NCBI RefSeq assembly: GCF_021233055.1
Contig: NZ_CP089538.1
Location: 3,922,501-3,986,500 of the forward strand
Reading direction: 5' to 3'
Length of the DNA: 64,000 bases
DNA from: Spirosoma oryzicola
GTDB taxonomy: Bacteria > Bacteroidota > Bacteroidia > Cytophagales > Spirosomataceae
Position 1 is the first letter of the stretch. Each line of letters opens with the position of its first letter. A program made the position numbers and the translations under genes. The notes beneath the pieces were generated by a model. That model ran no database searches. It was not told the origin of the DNA and saw nothing but the letters and a program-made list of their open reading frames with translations. Shown here piece by piece: positions 16,534 through 30,466 of the stretch.

Positions 16534-16584
16534 GCTACCAGTAGGCTCTCCATACCGGCCATTGGCGAAATTGTAAAAACTTTC

Positions 16585-16597
16585 GCAACTTTGTTGC
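16585..16597. promoter_or_regulatory. GCAAC-N3-GTTGC operator, box A (MerC-like gene)
   Basis: The half-sites GCAAC (16585-16589) and GTTGC (16593-16597) match those of boxes B, C and D. It lies about 60 nt upstream of the MerC-like start. The flanks are less symmetric than in the other copies, so this is the weakest member. A TACTTTTG -7 candidate lies at 16640-16647. Confidence 0.55.
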
Positions 16598-16656
16598 AAA
16601 AAAGCCGGTTAAGAGGAGGTACGATTGAGCGAAGCATCGTACTTTTGCGTTTGCCT

Positions 16657-17037
16657 ATGAAAACAGATATTCTTTCTCGCAAAGCTGACTACATTGGTAT
16701 TACAGGCTCCGTATTGTGCATCATCCACTGCATGATTACGCCTATCCTGTTGATGTCCACGGCTCTGCTTCAGGATGAACACCTCCGCTTTGGCTACTTG
16801 AGCCTGGATTATATTTTTATTGGCGTAAACATTGTTGCGGTTTACTTTGCAACGCGTCACTACGCTCCGCCAGTTATCAAAAAAGCGCTCTGGAGCTTTC
16901 TGTGTCTCTTTGCCGTAGCAATCATCCTGGAAGATGTAAGTCCTGTTTTTGAATACCTGGGCTACGCAGCATCAGCCGGTTTGGTTGTTACCCACCTCAT
17001 CAATATTCGGCAGCATCGCATCCAGCACGTTCACTAG
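16657..17037 (+). CDS. MerC domain membrane protein
   Basis: The start is the ATG at 16657 (MKTDILSRKADYIG); the frame extends to a TTG at 16591 that lies inside operator box A. The 126-residue product has four hydrophobic segments and the MerC signature SVLCIIHCMITPIL, in which two Cys sit in the first helix. MerC moves Hg2+ in mer operons, but chromosomal MerC-like proteins in Bacteroidota occur without mer genes, as here. The operator upstream links it to the metal island, so another divalent metal is a reasonable guess. It ends 6 nt from the convergent MbnH-like gene. Confidence 0.82.
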   Translation: MKTDILSRKADYIGITGSVLCIIHCMITPILLMSTALLQDEHLRFGYLSLDYIFIGVNIVAVYFATRHYAPPVIKKALWSFLCLFAVAIILEDVSPVFEYLGYAASAGLVVTHLINIRQHRIQHVH

Positions 17038-17043
17038 GCTTAA

Positions 17044-18156
17044 CTAGTTAGGGCCGAATGCCCGGTTCGTCATAAACGTATTGTCGGTCAAGGTTTTCAG
17101 GAAACTGATTACCTGCTTCTTCTCGGTATCGGTTAGTGCGATACCCAATTGTCCGTTCATTTTTAAGGCCGCATCGAGCGTTGGACTGTCTTTCACGCCT
17201 GATGCGTAGTGGTTGAGCACTTGGTCCAGCGTCGTAAAACGACCGTCATGCATGTACGGAAACGTATTTTCTACATTGCGCAGGCTTGGCACTTTGAATT
17301 TTAAGCGGTCGGCTTCGTTCAGCGTAATCGTGTAGCGTCCCTGGTCGTTGATGCCACTCGCCGGAAGGCCATTGTTACGGTAACTGTGGTCCGTAAATAA
17401 ATCGGTAGCGTGACAACTCGCGCATTTTTGTTTAAAGACCGCCAGTCCAGCCAGTTCATCGCTCGTTAATACCCCTCCGGCTTCGTTTCGAACGTATTTG
17501 TCGTAACGCGAATCAGCCGATACCAGGGTCAGCACAAACTGCGAAATAGCTTTCAGAAACCGTGCCGTCGTTACGGTATCCGAGCCAAACGCATTTTTGA
17601 ACATGGATGGGTATTTAGGGCTTTTTTGAACCCTTACCAGTACATCGGCAAACTTCATGTCCATCTCGACCGGATTGGTGATCGGTGCAATAAATAGCGT
17701 GTTCAGATCCGTGACGCCCCCATCCCAGAAAAACTCCCGCGACCAGGCCATATTCTGCAAACCCGGTACATTGCGCGTACCGATTCGATCGTCGATACCG
17801 TGACTCAATGGATGGTCGGAATGGGCAAAACCGGCAAACTGCTGGTGGCAGAATCCGCAGCTAACGCTACTATCGCGGGATAGATGCGTATCGTAAAACA
17901 AGGATTTTCCTAATGCCACTCCCTCGACAGTTAATGGATTATGCGTCAGGTCATAAACCGGATCGGGAAAGTTGGCGGGCTTTCGCAGCGCAACGGGCGT
18001 AGTTTTATAATCAACACCACCTGGTTCCGTTGGAGTCGGGTTAGGCGTTGGTTCATTCGCATCCGGCTTCGTCTGACAGGCAACGGCCAGCCCGAACAAA
18101 AACAGGCTAACGAGCAAACCCGCCTGTCTGACTGTATGGAGAACGGATTTTGTCAT
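17044..18156 (-). CDS. MbnH-like di-haem cytochrome c peroxidase family lipoprotein
   Basis: The 370-residue product has a lipobox (LAVAC, Cys27) and two haem c motifs, CGFCH at about 100-104 and CASCH near 240, as in the bacterial cytochrome c peroxidase/MauG superfamily. The PYMHDGRFTTLDQVLNHY block is also typical. Its start overlaps the stop of the MbnP-family gene by 4 nt (ATGA). In Methylosinus, MbnH oxidises a Trp of its partner MbnP to kynurenine, which allows copper binding. The same partnership is inferred here from the adjacency and families. Expected location: periplasmic side of a membrane. Confidence 0.88.
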   Translation of the reverse strand: MTKSVLHTVRQAGLLVSLFLFGLAVACQTKPDANEPTPNPTPTEPGGVDYKTTPVALRKPANFPDPVYDLTHNPLTVEGVALGKSLFYDTHLSRDSSVSCGFCHQQFAGFAHSDHPLSHGIDDRIGTRNVPGLQNMAWSREFFWDGGVTDLNTLFIAPITNPVEMDMKFADVLVRVQKSPKYPSMFKNAFGSDTVTTARFLKAISQFVLTLVSADSRYDKYVRNEAGGVLTSDELAGLAVFKQKCASCHATDLFTDHSYRNNGLPASGINDQGRYTITLNEADRLKFKVPSLRNVENTFPYMHDGRFTTLDQVLNHYASGVKDSPTLDAALKMNGQLGIALTDTEKKQVISFLKTLTDNTFMTNRAFGPN

Positions 18157-18968
18157 TGGTTGGCCGCCACGCGATTATAGCTAAACATAGACGCGTAATT
18201 GTCAGCGATGGTAGCCGAGAAAGGGACAAACATCACTTGCGGATTCTGCGCAATGCTCAGTTTCGTTGGTCCGTCAAATACCTTCAGCGCATCGACTTTC
18301 AAGCGCACCTGCGGTTTGAGCGACGGATCGACTTTAACAACATCTCCGTTGAAAGATAGCGTAACCGAACGCAGGTTATTGATCGTTTTCTTGCCGTTAT
18401 AGCCACCCCCAAAGCCTCCAACGTGGTAAAAGAACGCGCGATTATCCGTAGTCGGAGCTGCCGGAGACGTTCCTTCGAGCTTGAGAAAAACGTAGCCCGA
18501 ATTCCATTCCCAGTACATTCCATTATTCAGAGCGGGATCCAGAACGCCCGTACGCTGGCTGATGTCGGCCAAACTCCGCAGACTATCTACACCAATCAAA
18601 AACGTCATACCCGTATAATCACCCGCCGGTATTCCGCCCAACGTCATGGTCTGCGAAGCGGGTTTCTCTTCCTCAACCAGAAAATAGCTGTTTGCCTGCG
18701 GTAGCGCGTATTCGGTGCCATCCGCTTTTTTAAGTCGGATATTACTAATGAAGTAGTTAAACTTCGTCACCGTAAAATCTTCGCCGAGTGCATTCTTGTA
18801 CGTCTGGGTATTTAGGGTTATATCCTGATTGCCGACGACATTATCAACGGACAACGCTAAAGAGCCAACCGAGTCGGATGCCTGTTCGGGGTCAACGGTA
18901 TTACAGCCAACCACGGCAGATCCAACGGTTATTAATACGAAGAGTAGTTTGAAGAAGTAGTTTTTCAT
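18153..18968 (-). CDS. MbnP-family metal-binding lipoprotein
   Basis: The 271-residue product has a lipobox (AVVGC, Cys22). The mature region has the MbnP-family layout: TKFNYFISNIRLKKADG, GGIPAGDYTGMTFLIGVDS, and the central GMYWEWNSGYVFLKLEG, where a conserved Trp is the likely target of MbnH, followed by FYHVGGFGG with a candidate metal-ligand His. The Methylosinus protein binds Cu(I) only after Trp is turned into kynurenine. Metal identity here is not known. It is translationally coupled to the MbnH-like gene downstream. Confidence 0.87.
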   Translation of the reverse strand: MKNYFFKLLFVLITVGSAVVGCNTVDPEQASDSVGSLALSVDNVVGNQDITLNTQTYKNALGEDFTVTKFNYFISNIRLKKADGTEYALPQANSYFLVEEEKPASQTMTLGGIPAGDYTGMTFLIGVDSLRSLADISQRTGVLDPALNNGMYWEWNSGYVFLKLEGTSPAAPTTDNRAFFYHVGGFGGGYNGKKTINNLRSVTLSFNGDVVKVDPSLKPQVRLKVDALKVFDGPTKLSIAQNPQVMFVPFSATIADNYASMFSYNRVAANQ

Positions 18969-19008
18969 TACGCAGACTATAAATATCTATTACACCAAAT
19001 ACGCTGGT

Positions 19009-19212
19009 TTACTGCGAGTTGTTGCGCCCGTACAGGATAACAAGCGTTACTATACTACCGCTGACGATCATCAGAAACAGCCAGATCAACGCATTTGCTG
19101 CGCTGAGCGGACGCTGCATCAACTCGTTGACGAATCCCACCACGGTACCTACACAGATGCCGATCATACTGACAAAAATAAACTGAATAATGGGTGGTAA
19201 CCGGCGCAGCAT
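19009..19212 (-). CDS. Small two-helix membrane protein
   Basis: I do not recognise the family. The 67-residue product has two hydrophobic helices (FIFVSMIGICVGTVVGFV and ALIWLFLMIVSGSIVTLVIL) separated by a short loop with NELMQRPLS. It lies 40 nt upstream of the MbnP gene on the same strand, so it may be co-transcribed with the MbnP/MbnH pair. Its other side is the MITE-like element. Confidence 0.6.
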   Translation of the reverse strand: MLRRLPPIIQFIFVSMIGICVGTVVGFVNELMQRPLSAANALIWLFLMIVSGSIVTLVILYGRNNSQ

Positions 19213-19281
19213 ACGGAATGGGTTCGTATGAATAACGAACGGGTCACGGTTCTATTTTTCCGATTGACCAGTTCGTTATTT

Positions 19282-19442
19282 AGGGACTGTCTACAAATTT
19301 GTTTTTGATCCGTTTTTGTCATCCCGACGCCAGGAGGGATCTTCGGGAAGTGATAATTTATGTCATTTCCGAAGATCCCTCCTGGCGTCGGGATGACAAA
19401 ACACCCACTTTATCTTATTAGAAGAAAATTTAGACAGTCCCT
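19282..19442. mobile_element. MITE-like element with REP-type core
   Basis: The 161-bp element has 12-bp perfect terminal inverted repeats (AGGGACTGTCTA at 19282-19293 and its complement at 19431-19442). Such GGGACTGTC ends resemble IS5-group insertion sequences. Inside is a second, perfect 33-bp inverted repeat (19314-19346 and 19369-19401) with a 22-nt loop, whose arms contain CATCCCGACGCCAGGAGGGA. No transposase is present and no clear target duplication was found. It interrupts the gap between the Asp-box gene and the small membrane protein gene, so it may limit read-through from the receptor genes into mbnP/mbnH. Confidence 0.75.
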
Positions 19443-19454
19443 CAGAGTCATCAC

Positions 19455-20669
19455 TTAAAGAGTAGTAACCAACCGGCTTACAATCACCGTGTTTTTTCCT
19501 TCCGTAGTTTGCTCGTAGGCCACCAAGAGTCCGTTTTTCGTCGCTAGTGCCACGGGATATGTCGCATTGATGGTTTCGGGCGTCAGGTACGTGGTCGAAC
19601 TGATTGCCTGACCAGCCAGTGTCCGCATACCGATTCGTTGGACAAAGGAACCCATCTCGCCCGATCCATCTTTCGAAACCGACTCATCCCAAAGCCACAC
19701 AAGCCGCCCGTCGGTCGTTGCCACCTGCGGATGTTTGGCCCGGTTGGTCATGACCGACGAAACCAGTTTATGGGCTCCCATTTGCGCCAGCCGAAGTCCG
19801 GCCTCCCCTTCTTTTCCCGAGAACCAGGTCGTTAGGATTTCATCGCCGAGTTGAGCGACCGAAGGCCCGGCATGCGGACAAGCATTGACCTGCCAATGAT
19901 CGGCAAACACCACCTGTGGCTTGCTGAACGTTTTACCACCATCGTTCGAAATAGCCGTGCTGATGTCGCGGGAAGCAATCTCTCCTGCCCTGGTCGATGG
20001 CAACAGGTCGCGGTAGGTCAGGTGGATATTCTTTTGGGAATCGACGAACAGATTGGTTCGGCAGCACTGGCACGCGTTATCGTCTACCAGCACCGCTGGC
20101 CCAAACCCACCACCTTTGGTTGTCTGCGCAAAAACAACCGGACGCCCTTCTCGATTCGGTAATTTTTCGTCAAGCCATACCGCACCGATTTCCCCGTTGG
20201 GTAAACGGGCGATATCCGCAAAGGAGTGGCTTTTTCCTGGCGCAGCATCCTGATGAACCGATTTTGGCTCTGTCCAGGTTTTTCCGTTGTCGGTTGAGAC
20301 GGTGTACAGTAGATCACCGGCAAAACGCGACTGAGCCGTTGGTCGGGGGACTTCAAAAATCGCCAACAAGGTTCCGTCAGCCTTTGAAGCGATTTTGGGC
20401 ATTCCTTCGGCGTGAGCAGACAGCGTAGACGGTGCTTTTACTTGTATTTTGTCCCCGAAGCTTTGCCCGCCGTCGGTCGATATGGCGAAGTAAAAAGCGG
20501 CTCCTTTATCGCCGTCTTTCTCAACCCAGCTCAGCAACGGATTTCCGGCCGCGTCGGTTGTCAGGCGGGGTGTAGCGCCCACAAATTCTGGATTGGAAAC
20601 GGTAGTCTGGACGGGTGGCCGGGCAGCCGCTAACCAGAGTAAAATTGATACTATGAATGAGTACATCAT
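19455..20669 (-). CDS. Exported Asp-box (BNR) beta-propeller protein, sialidase-like fold
   Basis: The 404-residue product has a signal peptide and at least three Asp-box motifs, ISTDGGQSF near residue 63, VSTDNGKTW near 127 and ISNDGGKTF near 240, which mark a sialidase-type beta-propeller. The CQCCRTN segment near 205 adds a Cys pair that could bind metal or haem. Automated tools would call it exo-alpha-sialidase, but no catalytic Arg triad can be confirmed and no glycan genes are near. It lies 30 nt downstream of the TonB receptor on the same strand, so a role in the same uptake system is more likely. Confidence 0.82.
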   Translation of the reverse strand: MMYSFIVSILLWLAAARPPVQTTVSNPEFVGATPRLTTDAAGNPLLSWVEKDGDKGAAFYFAISTDGGQSFGDKIQVKAPSTLSAHAEGMPKIASKADGTLLAIFEVPRPTAQSRFAGDLLYTVSTDNGKTWTEPKSVHQDAAPGKSHSFADIARLPNGEIGAVWLDEKLPNREGRPVVFAQTTKGGGFGPAVLVDDNACQCCRTNLFVDSQKNIHLTYRDLLPSTRAGEIASRDISTAISNDGGKTFSKPQVVFADHWQVNACPHAGPSVAQLGDEILTTWFSGKEGEAGLRLAQMGAHKLVSSVMTNRAKHPQVATTDGRLVWLWDESVSKDGSGEMGSFVQRIGMRTLAGQAISSTTYLTPETINATYPVALATKNGLLVAYEQTTEGKNTVIVSRLVTTL

Positions 20670-20699
20670 GATTGGTTACGATTTGACGTTTGGACGCGG

Positions 20700-23042
20700 T
20701 TATTTCCCCGAAAACGTGTATTGAGCGCCGAACACAAAAGTCCGGGGAGCCGCCGGCGTGTAGGTTGTGCGGTCGGTAGCGTTGTTGCCGCGAGTCGCGT
20801 TGGTCGCAAAAAGCGCGTCGGTTACGTTCAGTACATTTGAAAACAGTTCAATGCCTTTCCACTGGTACCCCACACGGATATTGGCGAAATTGTAGCCACC
20901 GTACCGAACGGTGTTGACCTGGTTCTGGTACCAGCCCGATACATGCTGCCACTCCACCGACGTACGGAAATTCTTCAACCAGACCGGGTAGTAGCTGATT
21001 TCAGTGTTCCAGATCGTACGCGGGGCCGACGGCATATCTTTCCCATCAACGTTCTGCACCGCATCAGACGCCCGCTGGCTAAGCGTAAATTCGACAAAGC
21101 GGTGAACCGCGTGGGTCCCGCCAAATCGAAAGAATAGCTGCTTCGATGGACGATAGGTAACGCCCAATTCAACGCCCCGGTGCAGGGTTCGACCCGCCGA
21201 TTGGTAGTCATACGAATTATCTGGCTGACGGATGTTCAGCAGTTCGTTGGTTCCGTTCATCTGGTAAACGGCTCCGTCGATGTACACTTTGTTGCTGAAC
21301 AGACTTGCCCAACCGCCTACTTCCAGGTTGTTAAACTGAGCGGGTTGCAGGTTATAGTAAAACAGATCACCGGTTGCCGTTGGCGTGGTTCGTTTCAGGA
21401 AGATCGAAGTAAGCGCCGGGGGCGAAAACCCTTTAGCATAACTGGCATACAGCCCTTTACCGTTTCCTAGATCATACGTAGCGCCCAATTTAGGGGTAAG
21501 TTGACTATACGCCTTGTTGCCCAAACTGTTGTCCAGTGCGTTGGTATAATCGAACGCCATCCGGTCGTAGCGCAGACCCGCCGAAATTCGTAGCTTCGGC
21601 ATCAGTTCCAGATCGTACTGTACATAAGCGGCTATATTGTGAATATCGGCCTGGTAGTTAGCCAATTGAACATCAGGCCGCTCGCGCAACTGGGTGTATT
21701 TAAGCACCGATTTTTTATCCGCCCGTAATTCAGCCGACAGTTCCGTCTGGTAAGCGTAGTACGTATTTGGCGACAGATCCAGCGTGACACCAGCGATAAG
21801 CTTACTGTTCAGAAAAGTCAGTCGTTGGGTATGCTGGGCAATAAAGCCGTAACTGCGGAAATCGTTGCTGTTAATCTGCCCCGTCGCGGTCGATGAACCA
21901 CTCGTCCACCGAATCGAATACGTTGGATTCTGCCCGATGCTGTTGTTCCGTATAAAAGCGGTTACGAACGACTGTGAACCATTCTGCCAGTCGTGCTCAA
22001 GCGTCAGCCGACTGCGTAACGAAACCGTTTTGCGGTACGTAAAATCGGTTGTGCTGGCGTACTGACGCGCAAAAAAGGCGGTACTGTCTACATTGCCGGT
22101 GGTTTGCGAGTTGTAATCGTTGTACGAAACAGTGCCCGTCAGGCGAGTATGTGGCGTAAAGGCGTATTCGAGCCGGGTGAAGTACGACGATTTATCGTAA
22201 TCCGAACGGGCCAACCACGAATTGCGCTGCCGGGACACAAAGCCGCCCACGTAAATACCAAACTTACCCTGGCGAGCACCAGCACCAACCTGAAGCCGCT
22301 GGTAACCCCACTGATCGACCTGAATACCAACCCGAACCGTGGGCACAGCCGTTGGCCGCTGGGTGATAAAATTAACCGCTCCGCCTACGGCCTCTGGTCC
22401 GTAAATAGACGACACCGGCCCTTTCACGACCTCGATTGAGCTAACAGTAAATTGGTTCATTTCGAGCAGGGCGTTATGGTTAAAAACGCCCATTGGCCGG
22501 ATTGGAACGCCATCTTCCAGGTACAGAAAATACGCGTTGGTGGTCATCGGCTGACGGATCGCCATCATGTGCTGCTCGTTGCCCAAATTGACCATCAATA
22601 CGCCCGGCGTTTTGTTGATCACCTCGTAAATACTCGTCGGCTTGGTCTCTTCGATGAGTTTGGGCGAGAGCTTAGAAATCGCTATGGGTGTTTCGGTTCG
22701 CAGAGCAGCCTCGCGGTTACCCGTTACGACCACCGTTTGCAGATCCTCAACGGCTGGCTCCAGCGCGATTCGCAAGGGCTGATCAGCCGTTGCCATCACC
22801 TCCCGCTTTCGATAGCCGACGGCGGATACGACTACCATTGAACCATTGGTCGGCAGCGAAAAGCGCCCGTTTCCGTCTGTAACGACACCGGCTTTACCCT
22901 CCGCAACGATTACGGTTACCCCCGGCAAAGGTTCTTTGGTTTGCGCGTCATACACTAAGCCTTGCTTTACCGACTGCGCGGCAGCAGACCATACAATCAT
23001 CACCCATAGCCCAATGGCTATGAGACATTTATATGTTTTCAC
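20700..23042 (-). CDS. TonB-dependent outer membrane receptor with carboxypeptidase-like domain
   Basis: The 780-residue product starts at a GTG (23042); this gives a complete signal peptide ending SAAAQ, and no in-frame ATG precedes it. A carboxypeptidase-like regulatory domain (about 24-100, GLVYDAQTKEPLPGVTV) is followed by the plug (KLIEETKPTSIYEVINKTPG-type segment, then DGVPIRPMGVFNH and VVKGPVSSIYGPEAVGGAVN) and a 22-strand-type barrel ending in FGAQYTFSGK. It is an energised transporter for a scarce ligand across the outer membrane. Neighbours (His-rich lipoprotein, Cys-motif protein, MbnP/MbnH) suggest a metal or metal chelate. Confidence 0.93.
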   Translation of the reverse strand: MKTYKCLIAIGLWVMIVWSAAAQSVKQGLVYDAQTKEPLPGVTVIVAEGKAGVVTDGNGRFSLPTNGSMVVVSAVGYRKREVMATADQPLRIALEPAVEDLQTVVVTGNREAALRTETPIAISKLSPKLIEETKPTSIYEVINKTPGVLMVNLGNEQHMMAIRQPMTTNAYFLYLEDGVPIRPMGVFNHNALLEMNQFTVSSIEVVKGPVSSIYGPEAVGGAVNFITQRPTAVPTVRVGIQVDQWGYQRLQVGAGARQGKFGIYVGGFVSRQRNSWLARSDYDKSSYFTRLEYAFTPHTRLTGTVSYNDYNSQTTGNVDSTAFFARQYASTTDFTYRKTVSLRSRLTLEHDWQNGSQSFVTAFIRNNSIGQNPTYSIRWTSGSSTATGQINSNDFRSYGFIAQHTQRLTFLNSKLIAGVTLDLSPNTYYAYQTELSAELRADKKSVLKYTQLRERPDVQLANYQADIHNIAAYVQYDLELMPKLRISAGLRYDRMAFDYTNALDNSLGNKAYSQLTPKLGATYDLGNGKGLYASYAKGFSPPALTSIFLKRTTPTATGDLFYYNLQPAQFNNLEVGGWASLFSNKVYIDGAVYQMNGTNELLNIRQPDNSYDYQSAGRTLHRGVELGVTYRPSKQLFFRFGGTHAVHRFVEFTLSQRASDAVQNVDGKDMPSAPRTIWNTEISYYPVWLKNFRTSVEWQHVSGWYQNQVNTVRYGGYNFANIRVGYQWKGIELFSNVLNVTDALFATNATRGNNATDRTTYTPAAPRTFVFGAQYTFSGK

Positions 23043-23142
23043 TAAAATAAAGTTTAAGTCGAAGAAAGGAATACAGTACTACACACGCTCAGGTAGCTAA
23101 GCGTTGACATAGTCACTTATCGTACTGGAAATAAAGATTCGA

Positions 23143-23520
23143 CTAAACTTTGGGAGGACGGAAAAGACCCACGAGCGGGGCAACGTAAGAAGGAAAACGA
23201 TAGACAGGTACTCCTGCCAACAACGATTCGACCGAGGCTGGTTCGAACGTAAACGGCTGGCTATTCTCGCAAAATAGCTGCAACACAGGCAAGTTCTGCA
23301 CCCGTTGGGTGGTTTCCTTATCCTGCTTGTCCTGCTGCGCTTTCAGGCGTTTGGCCAGATAACACTGACCGTCGCAGTGCAGCTGCGGCTTGTCGCGATT
23401 TTCGCACAGCACACGGGCGATGTACTCCTTGTTGGCATGATAGTACGCAATGGTTCCCCACGGGCTTACCGTTGGCAGCAGCGTCGCAAAGAGGAGAACA
23501 AAGAGTAGCGCATTTTTCAT
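23143..23520 (-). CDS. Small exported protein with CxxxC (CDGQC) motif
   Basis: The 125-residue product has an N-terminal hydrophobic segment (residues 1-20) and a conserved-looking core YHANKEYIARVLCENRDK followed by CDGQCYLAKRL. Short proteins with this ENRDKPxLxCxGxC layout are often found next to metal-related TonB receptors in Bacteroidota; that is recollection of the family pattern, with no functional data. It is the first gene of the minus-strand run that continues into the receptor and Asp-box genes. A TACCTTTG -7 candidate lies at 23528-23535, only 8 nt before the start, so the mRNA leader would be very short. Confidence 0.72.
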   Translation of the reverse strand: MKNALLFVLLFATLLPTVSPWGTIAYYHANKEYIARVLCENRDKPQLHCDGQCYLAKRLKAQQDKQDKETTQRVQNLPVLQLFCENSQPFTFEPASVESLLAGVPVYRFPSYVAPLVGLFRPPKV

Positions 23521-23607
23521 GACATGACAAAGGTAGAACAGAATTGCGACCTGTACTTCGTCCAGCCGAAAGTTTCAGTTGAAACGATGAAGAAACAACG
23601 CCGATAA

Positions 23608-23626
23608 TATGCAACAATGTTGCATA
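23608..23626. promoter_or_regulatory. GCAAC-N3-GTTGC operator, box B (divergent promoter)
   Basis: A 19-nt palindrome, TATGCAACAATGTTGCATA, lies between the divergent Cys-motif gene (23520, minus) and the His-rich lipoprotein gene (23658, plus). For the plus-strand gene it covers the place expected for the -33 box of a TATCTTTA -7 candidate at 23633-23640, a position suited to repression. Confidence 0.75.
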
Positions 23627-23657
23627 ATACTTTATCTTTACGAAAAACCCCATTCCT

Positions 23658-24113
23658 ATGCGCTATCTCACGTTTGCCTGCCTGCTCTTAGCCTTCGCTG
23701 CCTGTTCGGATAAATCCGCTGCTGACAAACCCTTACTCGACGAAGCAGCTAAATATCACAATGAAGCCATTGAGGTTCAGGAGCAAGTAGAACCGCTGGT
23801 CGATCAGGTTGATTCGGTTCGAACGCTGCTGGTAAAGAAAGCCACTCCGGAAGCCAAATCAACGGCGCAGTCACTCGATAGCCTGAAAACGGCCTTCGAA
23901 GCGTGGGAAGAAAATCTGGTAGAAGTACCCGGCATGAAACACGAACACCATGAGCACAGCAGCGGTAAACACCATCATCATAACCATAACAACGACGCCA
24001 AGGACATGTCCGCCGATCAGATGCGTGATTTGCAGCGCGAATTCCTGACCAATATCAAAGCGATTCAAACCCAGACGCAGCAGGGTATGGATCGGGCCAA
24101 GAGCTTGCTTTAA
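23658..24113 (+). CDS. His-rich metal-binding lipoprotein
   Basis: The 151-residue product has a lipobox (AFAAC, Cys16), a helical region with heptad-like spacing (AIEVQEQVEPLVDQVDSV), and a His cluster near residues 94-112 (KHEHHEHSSGKHHHHNHNN). Such tracts bind Zn2+ or similar metals. Together with operator box B this suggests a periplasmic metal-holding protein made under metal shortage; that is inference. It ends 3 nt from the stop of the convergent ZIP gene, leaving no room for a separate terminator. Confidence 0.82.
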   Translation: MRYLTFACLLLAFAACSDKSAADKPLLDEAAKYHNEAIEVQEQVEPLVDQVDSVRTLLVKKATPEAKSTAQSLDSLKTAFEAWEENLVEVPGMKHEHHEHSSGKHHHHNHNNDAKDMSADQMRDLQREFLTNIKAIQTQTQQGMDRAKSLL

Positions 24114-24116
24114 CGC

Positions 24117-24890
24117 TTACTCGTTTACCGCCAGCCAGTACATCAGAGCGATACCTAACAGCATAAACAAACTATGCAGCCAGGAGCGTCTGGTCGGAGC
24201 GGCTTTCTGTAATTCGGGTATCAGGTCGCTGGCGGCTACGTAAATAAATCCGCCAGCGGCCACCGGCATGATATAGATTAGGTATGCTTCGAGCCACAGC
24301 CCAGCCAGCAGTACCGTAACGATGCCAACGATGCAGGTCAGCGCTGATAATAAATTGTAAAGCAAGGCCCGGCGAATGCTGTAGCCTCCGTAGAGCAGCG
24401 TACCGACATCTCCTACTTCCTGCGGTAATTCGTGCAATAGTAATCCGGCAGTTGTTGCCCAGCCTGCTGCCGGGCTTACCAGAAAACTACCTGCGATCAG
24501 CGTTCCATCGATGAAATTGTGTAGCGCGTCACCCACCAGGTTCATCGACGCCAAGGGTTGTACGGTCGATGCATCCGTCCGATGCTGGTGATGCCGCAAG
24601 CGGATAAATTGTTCGAGATTAAAAAACAGGACGATTCCAGCCAGAACCTCTACTAAGACGATCTGACTATCACCGATTTGCTCTAGCGATTCGGGTAACA
24701 GGTGCAGAAAGGCGTCGCCCAGAAGCACTCCCGTTGATAAGCTGATTCCCAAAGTCAACCACTGTTTCAGAACAAACTTCGGCAGTAGATAAGCGATTCC
24801 TCCAACCAGAGCAACTCCGCAAACCAACAAGCCCGCGAGGCTACTGTGGCCCCATATCTCCCATCGAATCGATTGCGTTGTTAACAGCAT
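24117..24890 (-). CDS. ZIP family metal transporter
   Basis: The start is the ATG at 24890 (MLLTTQSIRWEIWG); an upstream extension to 24947 is unlikely. The 257-residue product has about eight membrane helices. The paired metal-site motifs of ZIP proteins are present: LHNFIDGTLIAGSF in helix IV and LHELPQEVGD in helix V, with a short His-containing loop (RHHQHRTD) before helix IV. ZIP proteins move Zn2+, Fe2+ or Mn2+ into the cytoplasm. No GCAAC box was found directly upstream, so it may not be part of that regulon. Confidence 0.9.
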   Translation of the reverse strand: MLLTTQSIRWEIWGHSSLAGLLVCGVALVGGIAYLLPKFVLKQWLTLGISLSTGVLLGDAFLHLLPESLEQIGDSQIVLVEVLAGIVLFFNLEQFIRLRHHQHRTDASTVQPLASMNLVGDALHNFIDGTLIAGSFLVSPAAGWATTAGLLLHELPQEVGDVGTLLYGGYSIRRALLYNLLSALTCIVGIVTVLLAGLWLEAYLIYIMPVAAGGFIYVAASDLIPELQKAAPTRRSWLHSLFMLLGIALMYWLAVNE

Positions 24891-25038
24891 TATTCTGTTT
24901 AGTACTTTGGCCGGAAGGGAGTGCTTGACTACCGAGAAAGTACCCAACCATCAATCGATGCCCTTAGACACTCTCCTTCCAGCAACAAAATTTTATCAAT
25001 GACCTGGGGCCATGTTGTTGGCTAACAATGCTGTCGCC

Positions 25039-25126
25039 GGGGCCGTAGTCCGTGGTGTCGGTTTCTCAAAACCGACACTTTACGCCAGCAGAGATGTCGG
25101 TTTTGAGAAACCGACACCACGGCCCC
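25039..25126. repeat. Inverted pair of GTGTCGGTTT palindromes, copies 3 and 4
   Basis: Copy 3 (25055-25078, loop CTCA) and copy 4 (25095-25116, loop TGAG) lie in opposite orientation 16 nt apart and together form a larger inverted repeat reaching from GGGGCC (25039) to GGCCCC (25126). The core is the same as at 2596 and 2687. It occupies most of the gap between the ZIP and COG0523 genes. Confidence 0.75.
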
Positions 25127-25190
25127 ACCGGCATCACAGCCTACCGACATCACGCGGACACCAGATTACTATACGCAGGTTCTATATCAA

Positions 25191-26459
25191 TTACTCCCAG
25201 ACAGGAAACGGGTCCTTGAAGCTGCCACCCGACTCCAGGTGTTTTAGTTCAAGCTCCGTGCACAGGCAGTCCTGTAATTCCTTGGTTACTTGCTCCTGGT
25301 TTACATCCTGACCGATAATGACCAGCTCGTTTTGCCGGTCGCCGAAGCGTTTGTGCCAGCGAGCTTCGATTTGAGTGCGATTTTCCAAAAAAGACCCGTA
25401 CTGTATGCGCTGGTTAAAAGGCATGGAAGCCCACCAAACCCCTGCCGACTCGGCTCGCAGACTACCGCCAGCCTGGCTGAAGTTCAACGCATCGTCGGGT
25501 CGGGAAGCAAGCCAGAAAAGTCCCTTACTGCGAATGATACCCGCCGGGAAATTTTCGCTCAGGTAGTTCCAGAAGCGCACCGGATGAAACGGTCGCCGGT
25601 CACGGAACACGAAGGAAGAAATACCATACTCTTCAGTTTCGGGCGTGTGTCCTTTTCCGCTTCGCTGGTTCTGCAACTCCTGAATCCATCCCGCCGATTG
25701 CGACGCTTCATCGAAATCAAACCGGCCCGTGTTCAGGATTTCGGCTGGATCAATCTTACTGAACTGACAGTCTACCAGTTTCGCTTTTGGATTGAGTTTG
25801 CGCAGGATAGCTTTCAATTCCCCCGATTGCTGGCTACTGATCAGATCGGTTTTATTGACAATGATGACATCGGCAAACTCGATTTGATCCGTCAGCAAAT
25901 TGACAATGGTTCGGGTATCGGCGGCATCTTCGTTTAGTTCACGGTCATAAACGGTATCGACACTGCCGAAGTCGCGGTAAAAATTAAACCCGTCAACAAC
26001 TGTTACCAGCGTGTCTAATCGGGCGAAACGCGACAAGTCAACAGCATGGGCCTCATCGACCGAACTATCGGATTGGAATGTAAACGTCTGCGCGACGGGC
26101 AAAGGCTCCGAAATGCCCGACGACTCGATAAGCAGGTAATCGAACCGGCCTTCCTTCGCCAGTTTTTCGACCTCAATGATCAGGTCTTCGCGCAAGGTGC
26201 AGCAAATACAACCATTCGACATCTCGACCAGTTTCTCTTCGGTTCGCGAGAGTGTACCCTCCTGCCGAACGAGCGCGGCATCGACATTGACTTCGCTCAT
26301 GTCGTTGACGATAACGGCTACTTTCAGCCCTTGTCTGTTGTGCAGAACGTGATTGAGCAACGTGGTTTTTCCGGCTCCCAGAAAGCCGCTCAATACCGTG
26401 ACAGGCAATCGCTTGTCCGTCGCCTTCTGAATCGCTGGTTGTATAGTTTGACTTGCCAT
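25191..26459 (-). CDS. COG0523 (CobW-family) GTPase, metal chaperone
   Basis: The 422-residue product has the GTPase motifs GFLGAGKTT (Walker A, about 25-33), the metal-binding CICC near residue 86 ([11 protein letters not shown]), NKTDL near 204 and a C-terminal CobW_C domain. Relatives such as YeiR, ZigA and ZNG1 deliver Zn2+ to client enzymes and are often Zur-regulated. The promoter holds the longest of the four GCAAC palindromes (box C), which supports a zinc role here. The gene is monocistronic: a repeat-filled gap follows it. Confidence 0.93.
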
Positions 26460-26463
26460 GGGG

Positions 26464-26493
26464 CAAATCTAAAGACAATTTTTCTTTTTGCAA
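26464..26493 (-). promoter_or_regulatory. Bacteroidota-type promoter of the COG0523 gene
   Basis: On the minus strand a TTG -33 element (26493-26491) is separated by 19 nt from a perfect TAnnTTTG -7 element, TAGATTTG (26471-26464). The predicted start point falls within a few nt of the ATG at 26459, so the transcript would be nearly leaderless. The -33 box lies inside operator box C. Confidence 0.7.
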
Positions 26494-26515
26494 CATTGTT
26501 GCAAAAAGAAAAATT
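26477..26515. promoter_or_regulatory. GCAAC-N3-GTTGC operator, box C (COG0523 gene)
   Basis: This is the best copy: a 39-nt palindrome with 18-nt perfect arms around a 3-nt centre (core TTTTTGCAAC-ATT-GTTGCAAAAA). It overlaps the -33 element of the COG0523 promoter, which fits a dimeric repressor of the Fur/Zur type. The regulator gene is not in the window. Confidence 0.8.
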
Positions 26516-26644
26516 AGGCCGAATAATCACTGCGCAAAGTCTTTATGCGTTTTGACGACTCGTGTCGCGATTCGTTCCTGTTACTGCTTTAGAGCGAGGT
26601 AATACAGCGATGGGCGGGCGCAACTTTATCAGCAATAGCCGGTT

Positions 26645-27046
26645 CTACAGAATGCGAATTGGCTTTTTGTCTTCGTCCAGAGCGACAAACGTAAATGTGC
26701 CGTGGATGGCGTGATGGCGTTCCATTGAGTACATTTCTTCGACGAAAATTTCGACGGCAATTCGAATGCTCGTGTTACCCACGTGTTCGACCCGACCGAT
26801 AAGTTCTATGATCGTTCCGGCCGGTATGGATTTGGTGAAATTGATTTTGTCCAGCGACACAGTGACCATCCGCTTACGCGAAAAGCGTGTCGCCGTAATA
26901 AACGCTACTTCGTCCATCAATTGGAGCGCGGTACCGCCAAAAAGGGTATCGTAATGATTGGTTGTATTCGGAAAAACGGCTTTGACAACACGGGTTTCAG
27001 CGGCTGCAATTCGTTCGGTAATCGATTCGGCTTGATCAATGGCCAT
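26645..27046 (-). CDS. Acyl-CoA thioesterase, short hotdog protein
   Basis: The 133-residue product has the hotdog motif NTTNHYDTLFGGTALQLMDE near residue 27 and the SLDKINFTKSIPAG strand pair of YciA-type acyl-CoA thioesterases. It is the last gene of a tight three-gene set: its start lies 11 nt inside the 3' end of the Cys-rich gene upstream. The shared transcript with a PAS protein suggests control by a cytoplasmic signal, but no link in function is evident. Confidence 0.9.
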   Translation of the reverse strand: MAIDQAESITERIAAAETRVVKAVFPNTTNHYDTLFGGTALQLMDEVAFITATRFSRKRMVTVSLDKINFTKSIPAGTIIELIGRVEHVGNTSIRIAVEIFVEEMYSMERHHAIHGTFTFVALDEDKKPIRIL

Positions 27047-27284
27047 GTACTAATTGGTTTACTTTTTCTTGGTGAGTCTGGTTATTGTAGTCGGTTCGCA
27101 AGGCACACAGACAGTCGGCGCACAGACACCCTTCATACAATGAACGAATGTAGTGCTGTTGCGTTTCGGTCAGAGTAATTGACTGACACTGGCACAGGTT
27201 GATACTACCCACACGACACTCGAAAGGTCGTTGGCAACGTGGACAGGCGATATGCTCGTGCTTACTGCTGGACGGACAACTCAT
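27036..27284 (-). CDS. Cysteine-rich CWC-type small protein
   Basis: The start is the ATG at 27284 (MSCPSSSKHEHIACPRCQ). The 82-residue product has about nine Cys arranged as CPRC, ECRVGS, CQCQ and GCLCADCL, the pattern of the cysteine-rich CWC family, which probably binds zinc. It overlaps the PAS gene upstream by 23 nt and the thioesterase gene downstream by 11 nt, so the three are translationally linked. Function of the family is unknown. Confidence 0.8.
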   Translation of the reverse strand: MSCPSSSKHEHIACPRCQRPFECRVGSINLCQCQSITLTETQQHYIRSLYEGCLCADCLCALRTDYNNQTHQEKVNQLVHGH

Positions 27285-27789
27285 TCGTTTCAAACTCCTG
27301 CTCGAAGGCGATAAAATTAACAACCTGTTTTTGCCGGTTGAGGATAGGTCTGATCGTGATATGACACCAGTATTTGGATTGGTCTTTACGGTAATTCACT
27401 ACCTGTTCTTCAATGACACGATGTTTTTCGAGCGCCTTCCTGATGCGGTGTCTCGATGATGGGTCAGTCTCTGCTCCCTGCAAAAATACGGGACGACGGC
27501 CTACAACTTCGTGGTTTCTGTAGCCCGTCATCTGCTCAAAATTAGTATTTACGTACTGAATTACCTGCGTCGTATCGGTTACGACGACGGCCCATTTGCC
27601 ACTTTGCAGGTCATGACGGACGTTTGCGGGAAGATCCCACTCATTTGATTTGGCCAGTGCCATCCAGCCCGCTGTACCGGTAGGCAGTACGGGTTTTTGT
27701 CTGAATTCCCACCCAATCCACAAAGGTGTAATGTATGCCGTTTTATAGTGTTCCGCTACTTGCTTATCGTATATTCCGCAGAAATCCAT
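27262..27789 (-). CDS. LOV-like PAS protein lacking the photoactive cysteine
   Basis: The 175-residue product has one PAS domain at about residues 65-170. FLQGAETDP, the IRKALE helix and NYRKDQSKYW are hallmarks of the LOV subclass of PAS domains, but the flavin-bonding Cys motif GRNCRFLQ is replaced by GRRPVFLQ, and the Asn normally after the FW/YW pair is Cys (YWCH). It therefore cannot form the normal cysteinyl adduct. It could still bind flavin or act as a redox or ligand sensor. It has no output domain and heads the overlapping set with the CWC and thioesterase genes. Confidence 0.82.
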   Translation of the reverse strand: MDFCGIYDKQVAEHYKTAYITPLWIGWEFRQKPVLPTGTAGWMALAKSNEWDLPANVRHDLQSGKWAVVVTDTTQVIQYVNTNFEQMTGYRNHEVVGRRPVFLQGAETDPSSRHRIRKALEKHRVIEEQVVNYRKDQSKYWCHITIRPILNRQKQVVNFIAFEQEFETNELSVQQ

Positions 27790-28016
27790 GATCAGGCCAG
27801 TTAAAGTTCTATACTAATGATGGGGGAGTCTATGTGTCGCTTTATAAACACAGTAACTAATCCGAAGGTTATTTGTCCAGGTTAATCTTCACTTTTCAAC
27901 TCAACTGTGCTTTTATTGCCTAATCGGTGTTCAATCATACAGCAAAAGCACCGTTGCCCGTTTGTCGCTTATAGCAGCAATAACTTAGCCATGTTTTAAT
28001 CGTAACTCTTATTCTC

Positions 28017-28160
28017 GGGGGCTGACAATGAATCGACGGGTTGAAGACAGTCCTTTGACGCGAATGGGTACTTTCTCTTAAATTTCAGCCAAAACAATCC
28101 CCTAGCCCCTGTTCGTTACACTGTAGTAGCCTGCTGAATCAGCAAGATAGCTACAAGCAA
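28017..28160 (+). pseudogene. Segment resembling the 5' half of tmRNA (ssrA remnant?)
   Basis: This stretch begins GGGGGCTGACAATGAATCGA-like with ATCGACGGG, close to the tmRNA 5' consensus GGGGNTG...TTCGACGGG, and continues with CTCTTAAATTTCAG followed by CCAAAAC, similar to what I recall of Bacteroides ssrA before the tag. A short frame ending TAC-ACT-GTA-GTA-GCC-TGC-TGA would read YTVVAC, a poor version of a YAxAA tag. The CDF start at 28165 leaves no room for a 3' tRNA-like half. I cannot run a covariance search; this could be coincidence or another structured leader RNA (GGGGCT at 28018 can pair with AGCCCC at 28104). Confidence 0.35.
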
Positions 28161-28164
28161 AAGA

Positions 28165-29088
28165 ATGGCACACGAGCATCACCACGACCACGGCCATCAC
28201 CACGGACCGACTGTCCTGACATCAATCAACCGGGCGTTGATTATTGGGGCCGTTCTCAACTCGGTTTACGTAGCCGTAGAATTTATTGCTGGTTTTTATT
28301 ACAACTCGCTCGCCCTAACCGCCGATGCAGGCCACAATCTGAGCGATGTAGCCAGTCTTTTGCTTTCCCTGCTGGCCTTTCGGCTGGCCCGTGTACGCAA
28401 CACGACCAATTTTACGTACGGTTACCGAAAAAGCACAGTATTGGCATCGCTGACCAACGCCATTATTTTGTCCGTTACCATCGGAGCTATTATCTGGGAA
28501 AGTATTCAGCGCTTCCGACACCCCGAACCGGTCCCTGGTGTATCCGTGGCCTGGGTCGCTGGTTTTGGCATACTAGTCAATGCGTCTTCGGCGCTGCTTT
28601 TTTTTCGCGATAAAGAGCATGATCTGAACGTTAAAGGAGCCTATCTACACTTGTTGGCCGATGCTTTAGTTTCCTTGGGAGTCGTTGTTGCAGGGCTGCT
28701 GATCAGTTATACCGGCTGGGTCTGGCTCGACCCTATTAGCGGTCTGGTTGTAGCGGGTGTCATTCTGGGCTCAACATGGCGACTTCTGAACGACAGCCTG
28801 CGCCTTTCACTCGACGGCGTTCCGGCTGACATTCAACTTACGGATGTGCTTACCGATCTTCGGACCATCAACGGCGTTCGGGATGTGCACCACGTACACG
28901 TTTGGGCCATGAGCACAACCGAAAACGCCCTTACGGCGCACCTCGTTCTAGATCCTGGCTTGTCGGATCAGCAGATAACAGCGCTAAAGCACGACGCCCG
29001 ACACCGGCTTGAACACCGCAACATTAGCCATGCTACGCTTGAAACCGAGGTCGTCGCCGAAACCGACTGCGAAGCCGAAAACTGTTGA
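28165..29088 (+). CDS. CDF family zinc/cation exporter (ZitB/CzcD type)
   Basis: The 307-residue product begins with a His/Asp cluster (HEHHHDHGHHHG), then six membrane helices with the transport-site motifs HNLSD in helix II and HLLAD in helix V, giving the HD-HD site typical of Zn2+ selective CDF proteins. A cytoplasmic ferredoxin-like domain (DVHHVHVWAMST) closes the protein. It exports Zn2+ or similar ions in exchange for protons. It lies in the metal island but has no GCAAC box; being an exporter, it would not be expected to share a Zur repressor. Confidence 0.92.
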   Translation: MAHEHHHDHGHHHGPTVLTSINRALIIGAVLNSVYVAVEFIAGFYYNSLALTADAGHNLSDVASLLLSLLAFRLARVRNTTNFTYGYRKSTVLASLTNAIILSVTIGAIIWESIQRFRHPEPVPGVSVAWVAGFGILVNASSALLFFRDKEHDLNVKGAYLHLLADALVSLGVVVAGLLISYTGWVWLDPISGLVVAGVILGSTWRLLNDSLRLSLDGVPADIQLTDVLTDLRTINGVRDVHHVHVWAMSTTENALTAHLVLDPGLSDQQITALKHDARHRLEHRNISHATLETEVVAETDCEAENC

Positions 29089-29095
29089 TCGTTAC

Positions 29096-29425
29096 CTACT
29101 GCTCGAAATCATAGTCACGCTCCACCCGGCAGATGCGGGTTTTGTAGCGTTCGTACCAGCGTTCGCGTCCGATCTGCTGCGCTAGTTGGTGCTCGGCATG
29201 TCTTTTCCAGTTGCGAATGGCCTCCAGACTTTCCCAATAAGAAACCGTGATACCAAGTGCTCCCCCCTCCGCGTTTCGAGCCGATTCCGCTCCGAGAAAT
29301 CCAGGTTGCTGCTCCGCCAGCTCAACCATGCGGATAGCCATGTCGCCGTATCCTTCCGCTACGTCCGTTCGAACAGACGTAAAAATAACAGCGTAGTAAG
29401 GGGGTTCGGGTGTTTTAGCGATCAT
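29096..29425 (-). CDS. Antibiotic biosynthesis monooxygenase (ABM) domain protein
   Basis: The start is the ATG at 29425 (MIAKTPEPPYYAVIFTS). The 109-residue product has the dimeric ferredoxin-like ABM fold: AVIFTSVRTD, MVELAEQQPGFLGAESARN and ISVSYW-type strand ITVSYWESLEAIRNWKRHAEH. Such proteins include quinol monooxygenases and haem-degrading enzymes; the H near residue 82 and W residues are compatible with either. It is divergent from the flavoprotein gene at 29519 and shares the gap that holds box D. It ends 7 nt from the CDF stop. Confidence 0.85.
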   Translation of the reverse strand: MIAKTPEPPYYAVIFTSVRTDVAEGYGDMAIRMVELAEQQPGFLGAESARNAEGGALGITVSYWESLEAIRNWKRHAEHQLAQQIGRERWYERYKTRICRVERDYDFEQ

Positions 29426-29462
29426 ACCGTCCAAGATAAACAAACACGCGGATTATTCATTT

Positions 29463-29479
29463 ATGCAACAATGTTGCAT
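29463..29479. promoter_or_regulatory. GCAAC-N3-GTTGC operator, box D (divergent gap)
   Basis: The 17-nt palindrome ATGCAACAATGTTGCAT has the same core as box B. It lies 40 nt upstream of the flavoprotein start (29519) and 38 nt upstream of the ABM gene start (29425), so either or both may be controlled. Confidence 0.72.
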
Positions 29480-29518: not shown

Positions 29519-30466
29519 ATGCTTATGGATACCAGTGATCAATTAGATGTCATTATTATAGGAGGAAGCAACGCGGGTCTGAGTGCTGCACTGACATTGG
29601 GGCGCTCGTTACGAAACGTGCTTGTCATTGACGGTGGCAAGCCTTGCAACCGACAGACGCCCCACTCCCATAATTTCTTGACCCAGGACGGCGAAACACC
29701 CGCTCACATAGCCACCATCGCCAAAGAACAGATCCTTCGCTATCCGTCTGTTACTTTCCTGACTGACCTCGCCACCGAAGCGCGTCAGGAATCGGATGGC
29801 TTCATCGTTGAAACGGCCAATGGTCATTCGTTTCGTTCACGCAAAGTACTATTAGCGACGGGTATTGAGGATATCATGCCTTCTATCAACGGTTTTGCGG
29901 AATGCTGGGGACGCTCTGTGCTGCACTGCCCGTATTGCCACGGCTACGAAGTACACGGCCAGCGACTGGGCATTCTGGCCAATGGCGAGACGGCTTACGA
30001 ACTGGCCCGACTGATTCAGCATTGGAGTCCTGATTTGACCGTATTTACCAACGGTCCAGCAACGCTGACAAACGATCAGTCGGAGGTGATTAGTCAGTTG
30101 GGCATACCCGTCGTTACGGCTGAAATCGCGGAGATTGAGCACCAGTCTGGTCAGTTGGAAAGACTACGTTTTACAGATGGCTCCACCCACGAACTGGACG
30201 CTATTTTCAGCCGGGTTCCGTTTCGCCAGCATACTACGCTTGCTCAGCAACTAGGCTGTCTCGCTGCGGAATCAGGTCTGATCAAAGCGGACGAATTTGG
30301 TGAAACAAACATTCCTGGTGTGTACGTGGCGGGCGACAACAGTTCGCCCATGCGACAGGTTGCCGCTGCCATTGCGAGTGGTAGTAAAGCAGCCGCTATG
30401 CTGAATCGTCAGTTGATTGCCGAAGAATTAAGCGCCCGACTTGTTAAAGCAGATGCTGTCCAGTAG
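29519..30466 (+). CDS. Thioredoxin-reductase-like NAD(P)/FAD oxidoreductase
   Basis: The start is the ATG at 29519, or 29525 two codons on; both precede DTSDQLDVIIIGGSNAGLSA, the FAD-binding motif. The 315-residue product has VLLATGIED, the redox pair CPYC at about residue 140 (HCPYCHGYE), and a final GVYVAGDNSSPMRQ segment. CPYC replaces the CATC of classical thioredoxin reductase; this branch often lacks a thioredoxin partner and may reduce other disulfides. Box D suggests metal-dependent expression. The longer frame to 29186 overlaps the opposite-strand gene and is rejected. Confidence 0.9.
   Translation: MLMDTSDQLDVIIIGGSNAGLSAALTLGRSLRNVLVIDGGKPCNRQTPHSHNFLTQDGETPAHIATIAKEQILRYPSVTFLTDLATEARQESDGFIVETANGHSFRSRKVLLATGIEDIMPSINGFAECWGRSVLHCPYCHGYEVHGQRLGILANGETAYELARLIQHWSPDLTVFTNGPATLTNDQSEVISQLGIPVVTAEIAEIEHQSGQLERLRFTDGSTHELDAIFSRVPFRQHTTLAQQLGCLAAESGLIKADEFGETNIPGVYVAGDNSSPMRQVAAAIASGSKAAAMLNRQLIAEELSARLVKADAVQ

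Follow-up and report, generated by a model that had tools for sequence, protein, structure and literature searches.

Palindromes in promoters of zinc-type genes of Spirosoma oryzicola are probable Zur operators of a form found across Bacteroidota

What reads a palindrome that recurs in four promoter gaps of a single island of metal-type genes? The question arises in a 64,000-nucleotide stretch of the Spirosoma oryzicola genome (contig NZ_CP089538.1, positions 3,922,501 to 3,986,500; hereafter the window), where an original prediction made from the letters alone had noticed the repeat GCAAC-N3-GTTGC and assigned it to a Fur-family repressor, probably Zur. A pattern search finds exact copies of this repeat (GCAACNNNGTTGC) at 16585, 23611, 26490 and 29465 and nowhere else in the window, and all four sites lie between genes and before genes, as had been described. 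We conclude that the palindrome very probably serves as operator for Zur, the Fur-family repressor that senses zinc. Repression by Zur is strongly supported by inference from sequence, and the site, built into the core promoter, is shared by many relatives throughout the Bacteroidota. Direct computation gave the sites, the gene neighbours that recur at them, the Zur-type genes at the boxes of relatives and the promoter geometry.

It is the 15-mer TGCAACAnTGTTGCA that is informative, not the short 13-mer. Under a first-order Markov model, 0.105 copies of the 13-mer are expected in the window and four are observed (Poisson P = 4.6e-6); for the 15-mer, the dinucleotide make-up of the window gives an expectation of 0.0004, and three copies are observed. 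TGCAACANTGTTGCA is matched exactly by three of the four sites, and the box at 26490 is part of a perfect inverted repeat reaching TTTTTGCAAC-ATT-GTTGCAAAAA. In a genome-wide scan, as suggested by the prediction, the 13-mer is not enriched (10 sites against 18 for the reversed control) and was rejected as a genome-wide marker. With up to two mismatches the 15-mer is at the control level as well (16 against 16), and in the S. oryzicola genome only the exact or one-mismatch form is specific. Of its four exact copies, three are those of the window and the fourth is at C3:212013, about 250 bp upstream of a siderophore-type TonB receptor; a one-mismatch copy at C1:2858107 has its end some 40 bp upstream of a gene for a TonB-dependent receptor, after which comes a lipoprotein gene. 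In keeping with the prediction, the exact and one-mismatch matches precede metal-type genes and none is inside a gene. Ten two-mismatch matches lie outside the window, and nine were examined (L020-L026, L028 and L029; the tenth, on C8, was left out): seven are inside open reading frames (ORFs), L020 touches the 3' end of a gene, L025 is intergenic before a lipoprotein-like ORF, and no recognised zinc gene was seen by eye downstream of the nine. Because two-mismatch matches fall mostly inside genes, the search pattern must stay strict.

The box recurs with the same kinds of genes in relatives. All 13 genomes of the genus that were searched match GCAACWNWGTTGCA (seven of them also have one control match), and by hand count 20 of the 20 distinct sites obtained as loci precede MerC, ZigA-like, TonB receptor, lipoprotein or flavoprotein genes. 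The weak merC box has counterparts before MerC in L365, L366, L368, L370, L371 and L374, one of them with two central bases changed. Another congeneric locus (L384) has one box between divergent cation-efflux (CDF) and ZigA-like genes. In the family, 99 exact copies of the 15-mer were found in 45 of 61 genomes, and none of the reversed control. At 63 of 69 family box groups, own sites included, a gene of a recurring class has its start within 420 bp and reads away from the box; the groups without one are L057, L104, L176, L177, L178 and L188. One group may count for two classes, and the commonest are the lipoprotein (19 groups), MerC (14), flavoprotein (13), ZigA-like (11) and AztD-like (7) genes, followed by Zur, DUF3299-like, His-rich lipoprotein and ZnuD-like receptor genes (3 each) and a methyltransferase (2). 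Fur-type, ZIP, window TonB, siderophore TonB, Cys-motif and ABM genes each occur at a single group. The label "DUF3299-like" is our own, and a Pfam scan of this class gave no match. No AztD-like protein was found in the S. oryzicola genome itself, in a weak search with a single query from another genus. In two distant genomes (L104:1367-1900 and L296) the box is followed by an ORF that we take to be dCTP deaminase-like, which might be a zinc-independent backup enzyme.

Beyond the family, the exact 15-mer is present in 12 of 296 Bacteroidota genomes (control match in one genome), and the looser TGCAACWNWGTTGCA in 25 of 198, five of which have control matches. Among 12 exact-box loci in ten genomes outside the family, targets could be made out by eye at seven (L090, L091, L092, L096, L097, L100 and L101) and at none of the other five (L093, L095, L098, L099 and L102); L095 is inside a gene, and L098 and L102 are a single pair of boxes. 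ZigA-like genes outside the family have a box with at most three mismatches within 1400 bp upstream in 11 of 16 scored loci; 10 of 27 loci lacked a recognised GTPase motif and were left unscored. We also scanned one genome per species, 84,980 bacteria and archaea in all, for the box with TAnnTTTG, the -7 element of the phylum, after a gap of N15-19. At least 120 stretches matched, and all species-wide counts given here rest on the 80 listed. By record names 77 of these are from Bacteroidota, a restriction that the search partly imposes by requiring a -7 element typical of that phylum; one is a metagenome-assembled genome (MAG) of Ignavibacteriaceae and one a Bifidobacterium breve MAG contig. 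The latter (L244) has 36% GC and carries box, promoter and lipoprotein gene, and is probably a mis-binned Bacteroidota contig. A core-class gene lies downstream in 56 of 82 matches at the 80 loci, against 8 of 462 TAnnTTTG sites in the same loci that have no box within 1 kb and, as a stricter control, 3 of 129 such sites outside ORFs of at least 100 aa. Three Chitinophaga loci (L254, L275 and L291) have in common a small His-rich protein that is box-driven and whose start is hydrophobic, and at L302:1194-1234 the gene after the box resembles, by eye, a ZnuA-type zinc-binding lipoprotein.

The genome encodes one full-length Zur-type protein, of 138 aa (C1:43193), with a Fur-family domain. We compared it with Zur-type proteins (60 genes, among the matches listed) and with Fur/PerR-type proteins; a further alignment, A2, does not include L106, L125 and L147, and in the Fur/PerR residue count L014 and L037 were left out and L092, L096 and L097 counted apart. 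The four structural cysteines of two CxxC motifs (C97, C100, C133 and C136) are present in 60-61 of 61 Zur-type rows and in 33 of 33 Fur/PerR-type rows, and are thus not specific to Zur. C79 aligns with C76 of Mycobacterium tuberculosis Zur (2o03), a Cys ligand of the sensor site, and is found in 60 of 61 Zur-type and none of 33 Fur/PerR-type rows. R53, which we take from the VYR motif to correspond to Arg65 of Escherichia coli Zur, is Arg in 61 of 61 Zur-type rows and Asn in 33 of 33 Fur/PerR-type rows. Arg65 is described in an excerpt of PMC6103462 as the base-contacting Arg of the recognition helix. Elsewhere in the genome, on C8, L014:1417-1734 encodes a Fur-family protein of 105 aa whose match to the profile is confined to the DNA-binding part; its neighbours look by eye like PepSY-like iron-uptake-type genes.

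A role for another Fur-family member, of the iron Fur or peroxide PerR type (like L011 or L012), as the binder of the box has some points in its favour: Fur-family genes are present in all 61 family genomes, one Fur-type gene (L044) adjoins a box, and 7-1-7 repeats serve several Fur-family regulators. The company that the box keeps makes this improbable. A Zur-type gene lies within 500 bp of the box at 16 of the 80 species-wide loci and a Fur/PerR-type gene at none; none of 32 Fur/PerR-type genes chosen irrespective of the box has one upstream (L044, found via its box, was kept out of this set for the Fisher test); and the recurring box targets are zinc-type genes. The expectation that the box would precede a Fur-family gene holds for zur genes of relatives and fails for zur of S. 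oryzicola itself. The proposal of a Zur-type regulator as the binder is supported, at the level of sequence, by the metal-gene targets, the boxes at relatives' zur genes and the Zur-type protein encoded in the genome.

A regulator of copper, or one of another family, is more improbable still. Copper is hinted at by a pair of MbnP-like and MbnH-like genes (di-haem, MauG family) that adjoin the zinc genes at 17044-18968 on the minus strand, and such a pair also stands beside a box-carrying AztD-like gene in Fibrisoma (L170) and in genome G018 (L171). In the window, however, no box directly precedes MbnP or MbnH, and the ZigA-like, AztD-like and ZIP genes are of zinc type. Zur-type genes recur at the box in the 80 species-wide loci, in a scan aimed at Fur-family regulators.

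The position of the box relative to the promoter gives a further indication of its role. Bacteroidota promoters carry a TTG at -33, at a usual spacing from the -7 element. The housekeeping -7 element of a flavobacterium, TAnnTTTG, lies at -12 to -5 according to an excerpt of PMC9723704. Leaving out boxes without 90-bp flanks and duplicate contexts, we kept 79 boxes for counts of second boxes and 81 for the -7 element. In 27 of 162 box orientations the distance from the start of the box to that of the -7 element is 30-34 nt, which places the TTG of TGTTGCA 17-21 nt before the element. In the species-wide matches the gap between box and -7 element peaks at 17 (36 of 82) within the range of 15-19 imposed by the search. 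A second box with at most four mismatches was found 36-40 bp away in 39 instances among the 79 distinct boxes, and in 24 instances at all 66 other distances from 15 to 85 bp together, exact-box pairs being counted from both sides. In the species-wide set, all 24 second-box matches at a distance of 36-40 bp are on the downstream side. In 31 orientations a box begins 6 nt after the start of TAnnTTTG and so overlaps the -7 element. The ZigA-like promoter in the window is an exact single-box form, with TAGATTTG at offset 32 and ATG four bases later, from which a leaderless mRNA is predicted. That the palindrome acts as an RNA hairpin in an mRNA leader (5-9 bp stem, 3-nt loop), as its perfect inverted repeats might suggest, can hardly be credited, since the -7 element 30-34 nt downstream puts the box upstream of the transcription start in those 27 orientations and a single box is often common to two divergent genes.

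In the mechanism we propose, zinc-loaded Zur, which in S. oryzicola would be the 138-aa protein of C1:43193, would bind TGCAACAnTGTTGCA as a dimer. The right half-site would supply the -33 TTG of a housekeeping promoter, and a second copy of the box would often cover the -7 element, with one dimer on -33 and another on -7. As the box carries the -33 TTG and the second box covers -7, the repressor, once bound, would stand in the way of RNA polymerase. Zinc scarcity would release Zur and allow expression of merC, the ZigA-like GTPase, the His-rich lipoprotein, the Cys-motif/TonB genes and the flavoprotein, and also of a receptor-lipoprotein pair of the outer membrane that is encoded elsewhere in the genome. 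Repression by zinc-loaded Zur is what the family of the protein leads us to infer; zinc as co-repressor, binding and the direction of regulation are presumed. Somewhat less firmly, we favour a wider view in which Zur operators across Bacteroidota are made from the core promoter (TGTTGCA providing the -33 TTG, and a second operator beginning inside the -7 element, TAnnTTTGCAACA), so that the boxes are fixed 36-40 bp apart. The regulon would then be an unrecognised zinc-acquisition set, with MerC and the lipoprotein-receptor pair as importers and the TrxR-like flavoprotein as helper.

Several observations weigh against the assignment to Zur or limit its reach. The exact 15-mer is absent from 284 of 296 genomes of the phylum and from 16 of 61 of the family, and 26 of the 82 species-wide matches lack a downstream core gene. 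In the window itself, the exact -7 element at the usual distance is missing at three of the four boxes, and these three have no second box. No box was found upstream of the zur gene of S. oryzicola, and the best of the eight NCBIfam matches of its product, to the Zur equivalog NF008646 (PRK11639), scores 35.1 bits against a cut-off of 167, so that the protein is not filed under that equivalog. The gene L044 mentioned above (genome G053), of Fur/PerR type, has an exact box 183 bp upstream, with a flavoprotein gene on the other side of the box. Queries for the lipoprotein, AztD-like, DUF3299-like, receptor and methyltransferase classes were drawn from box loci, which makes the 63 of 69 partly circular; for these five classes it is recurrence, not the bare match, that counts as evidence. 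Some loci from the contig search (Fibrisoma, Persicitalea) come from genomes already counted.

The boxes of the window and the genes around them are collected in Table 1. Directly downstream of the merC box, at 16619-16642, is a second inverted repeat, GTACGAT-N10-ATCGTAC. The Cys-motif gene, for which Pfam and NCBIfam scans gave no match, possibly forms one operon with the TonB receptor and BNR genes, judging from their spacing. Of the two genes flanking the last box, the flavoprotein (which also has a TIGR01292 match below cut-off) is of a class that is a frequent box target, including 9 of 82 species-wide matches; the single family group of the ABM class is the window's own. The ZIP transporter has no 15-mer nearby, even with up to three mismatches.

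Table 1. Candidate Zur boxes and neighbouring genes in the window.
Feature	Position	Strand	Basis or remark
Predicted Zur box before merC	16584..16598	.	CGCAACTTTGTTGCA, 2 mismatches; box before MerC also in 6 other congeneric genomes
MerC-domain protein, predicted target	16657..17037	+	PF03203, 63.2 bits on longer ORF 16591-17037
BNR-repeat protein, possible downstream gene	19455..20669	-	PF13088
TonB-dependent receptor, possible downstream gene	20700..23042	-	PF00593/PF07715
Small Cys-motif protein, predicted target, possible operon lead gene	23143..23520	-	Position next to box
Predicted Zur box between divergent genes	23610..23624	.	Exact 15-mer
His-rich lipoprotein, predicted target	23658..24113	+	Class at 3/69 family box groups
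ZIP-family transporter within island, without own box	24117..24947	-	PF02535
ZigA-like COG0523 GTPase, predicted target	25191..26459	-	PF02492; NF038288, 559 bits (cut-off 600)
-7 element TAGATTTG of ZigA-like gene	26464..26471	-	32 nt from box start
Predicted Zur box of ZigA-like gene	26489..26503	.	Exact 15-mer; TTTTTGCAACATTGTTGCAAAAAG
ABM-domain protein, divergent at 29464 box, uncertain target	29096..29443	-	PF03992
Predicted Zur box between ABM and flavoprotein genes	29464..29478	.	Exact 15-mer
Thioredoxin-reductase-like flavoprotein (CPYC), predicted main target of 29464 box	29519..30466	+	PF07992

The box would provide a usable signature of zinc limitation for the large phylum Bacteroidota. 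It points to a function for nameless genes and for MerC, a protein named for mercury, suggests a route of zinc across the outer membrane, and may be a simple case of operator spacing dictated by the unusual Bacteroidota promoter.

Zur boxes of the 7-1-7 type are known in other phyla, as an excerpt of PMC6103462 describes. In the literature searched, as far as the consulted parts of the sources go (including PMC2770081, PMC9976891, PMC6103462, PMC11960050, PMC4176598, PMC12574912, PMC9723704 and PMC10957091; subscription journals and RegPrecise were outside the search), we found no Zur box for Bacteroidota, and the Bacteroidota form is new to that extent. Several targets resemble known zinc proteins at a distance. 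The window GTPase spans the whole ZigA profile NF038288 (1-390 of 390) and is called ZigA-like because its score is under the curated cut-off. The family targets L047, L164 and L170 cover most of the profile of the zinc metallochaperone AztD (NF038015; E 9e-23 to 2e-30) at 80.6, 81.9 and 105.9 bits, below the cut-off of 400, and hence are AztD-like. The box target L191:4561-6963 of the S. oryzicola genome, followed by a lipoprotein gene, matches the zinc receptor ZnuD (NF038289) with E 5e-34 and 117.9 bits against a cut-off of 950, and hence is only ZnuD-like; it fits the haem-receptor model TIGR01785 better (E 1.9e-48). With the Zur regulons of other phyla, as far as the part consulted of PMC6103462 and of the published Zur boxes goes, the proposed system shares a Fur-family regulator with a sensor-site Cys, a palindromic 7-1-7 operator, and targets that include a COG0523 GTPase, TonB receptors, a ZIP-type transporter and zur itself. 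It differs from them in the half-site TGCAACA, in the abundance among its targets of MerC-domain proteins, of a lipoprotein of about 185 aa and of a TrxR-like flavoprotein, and in an operator built around the -33/-7 promoter of Bacteroidota.

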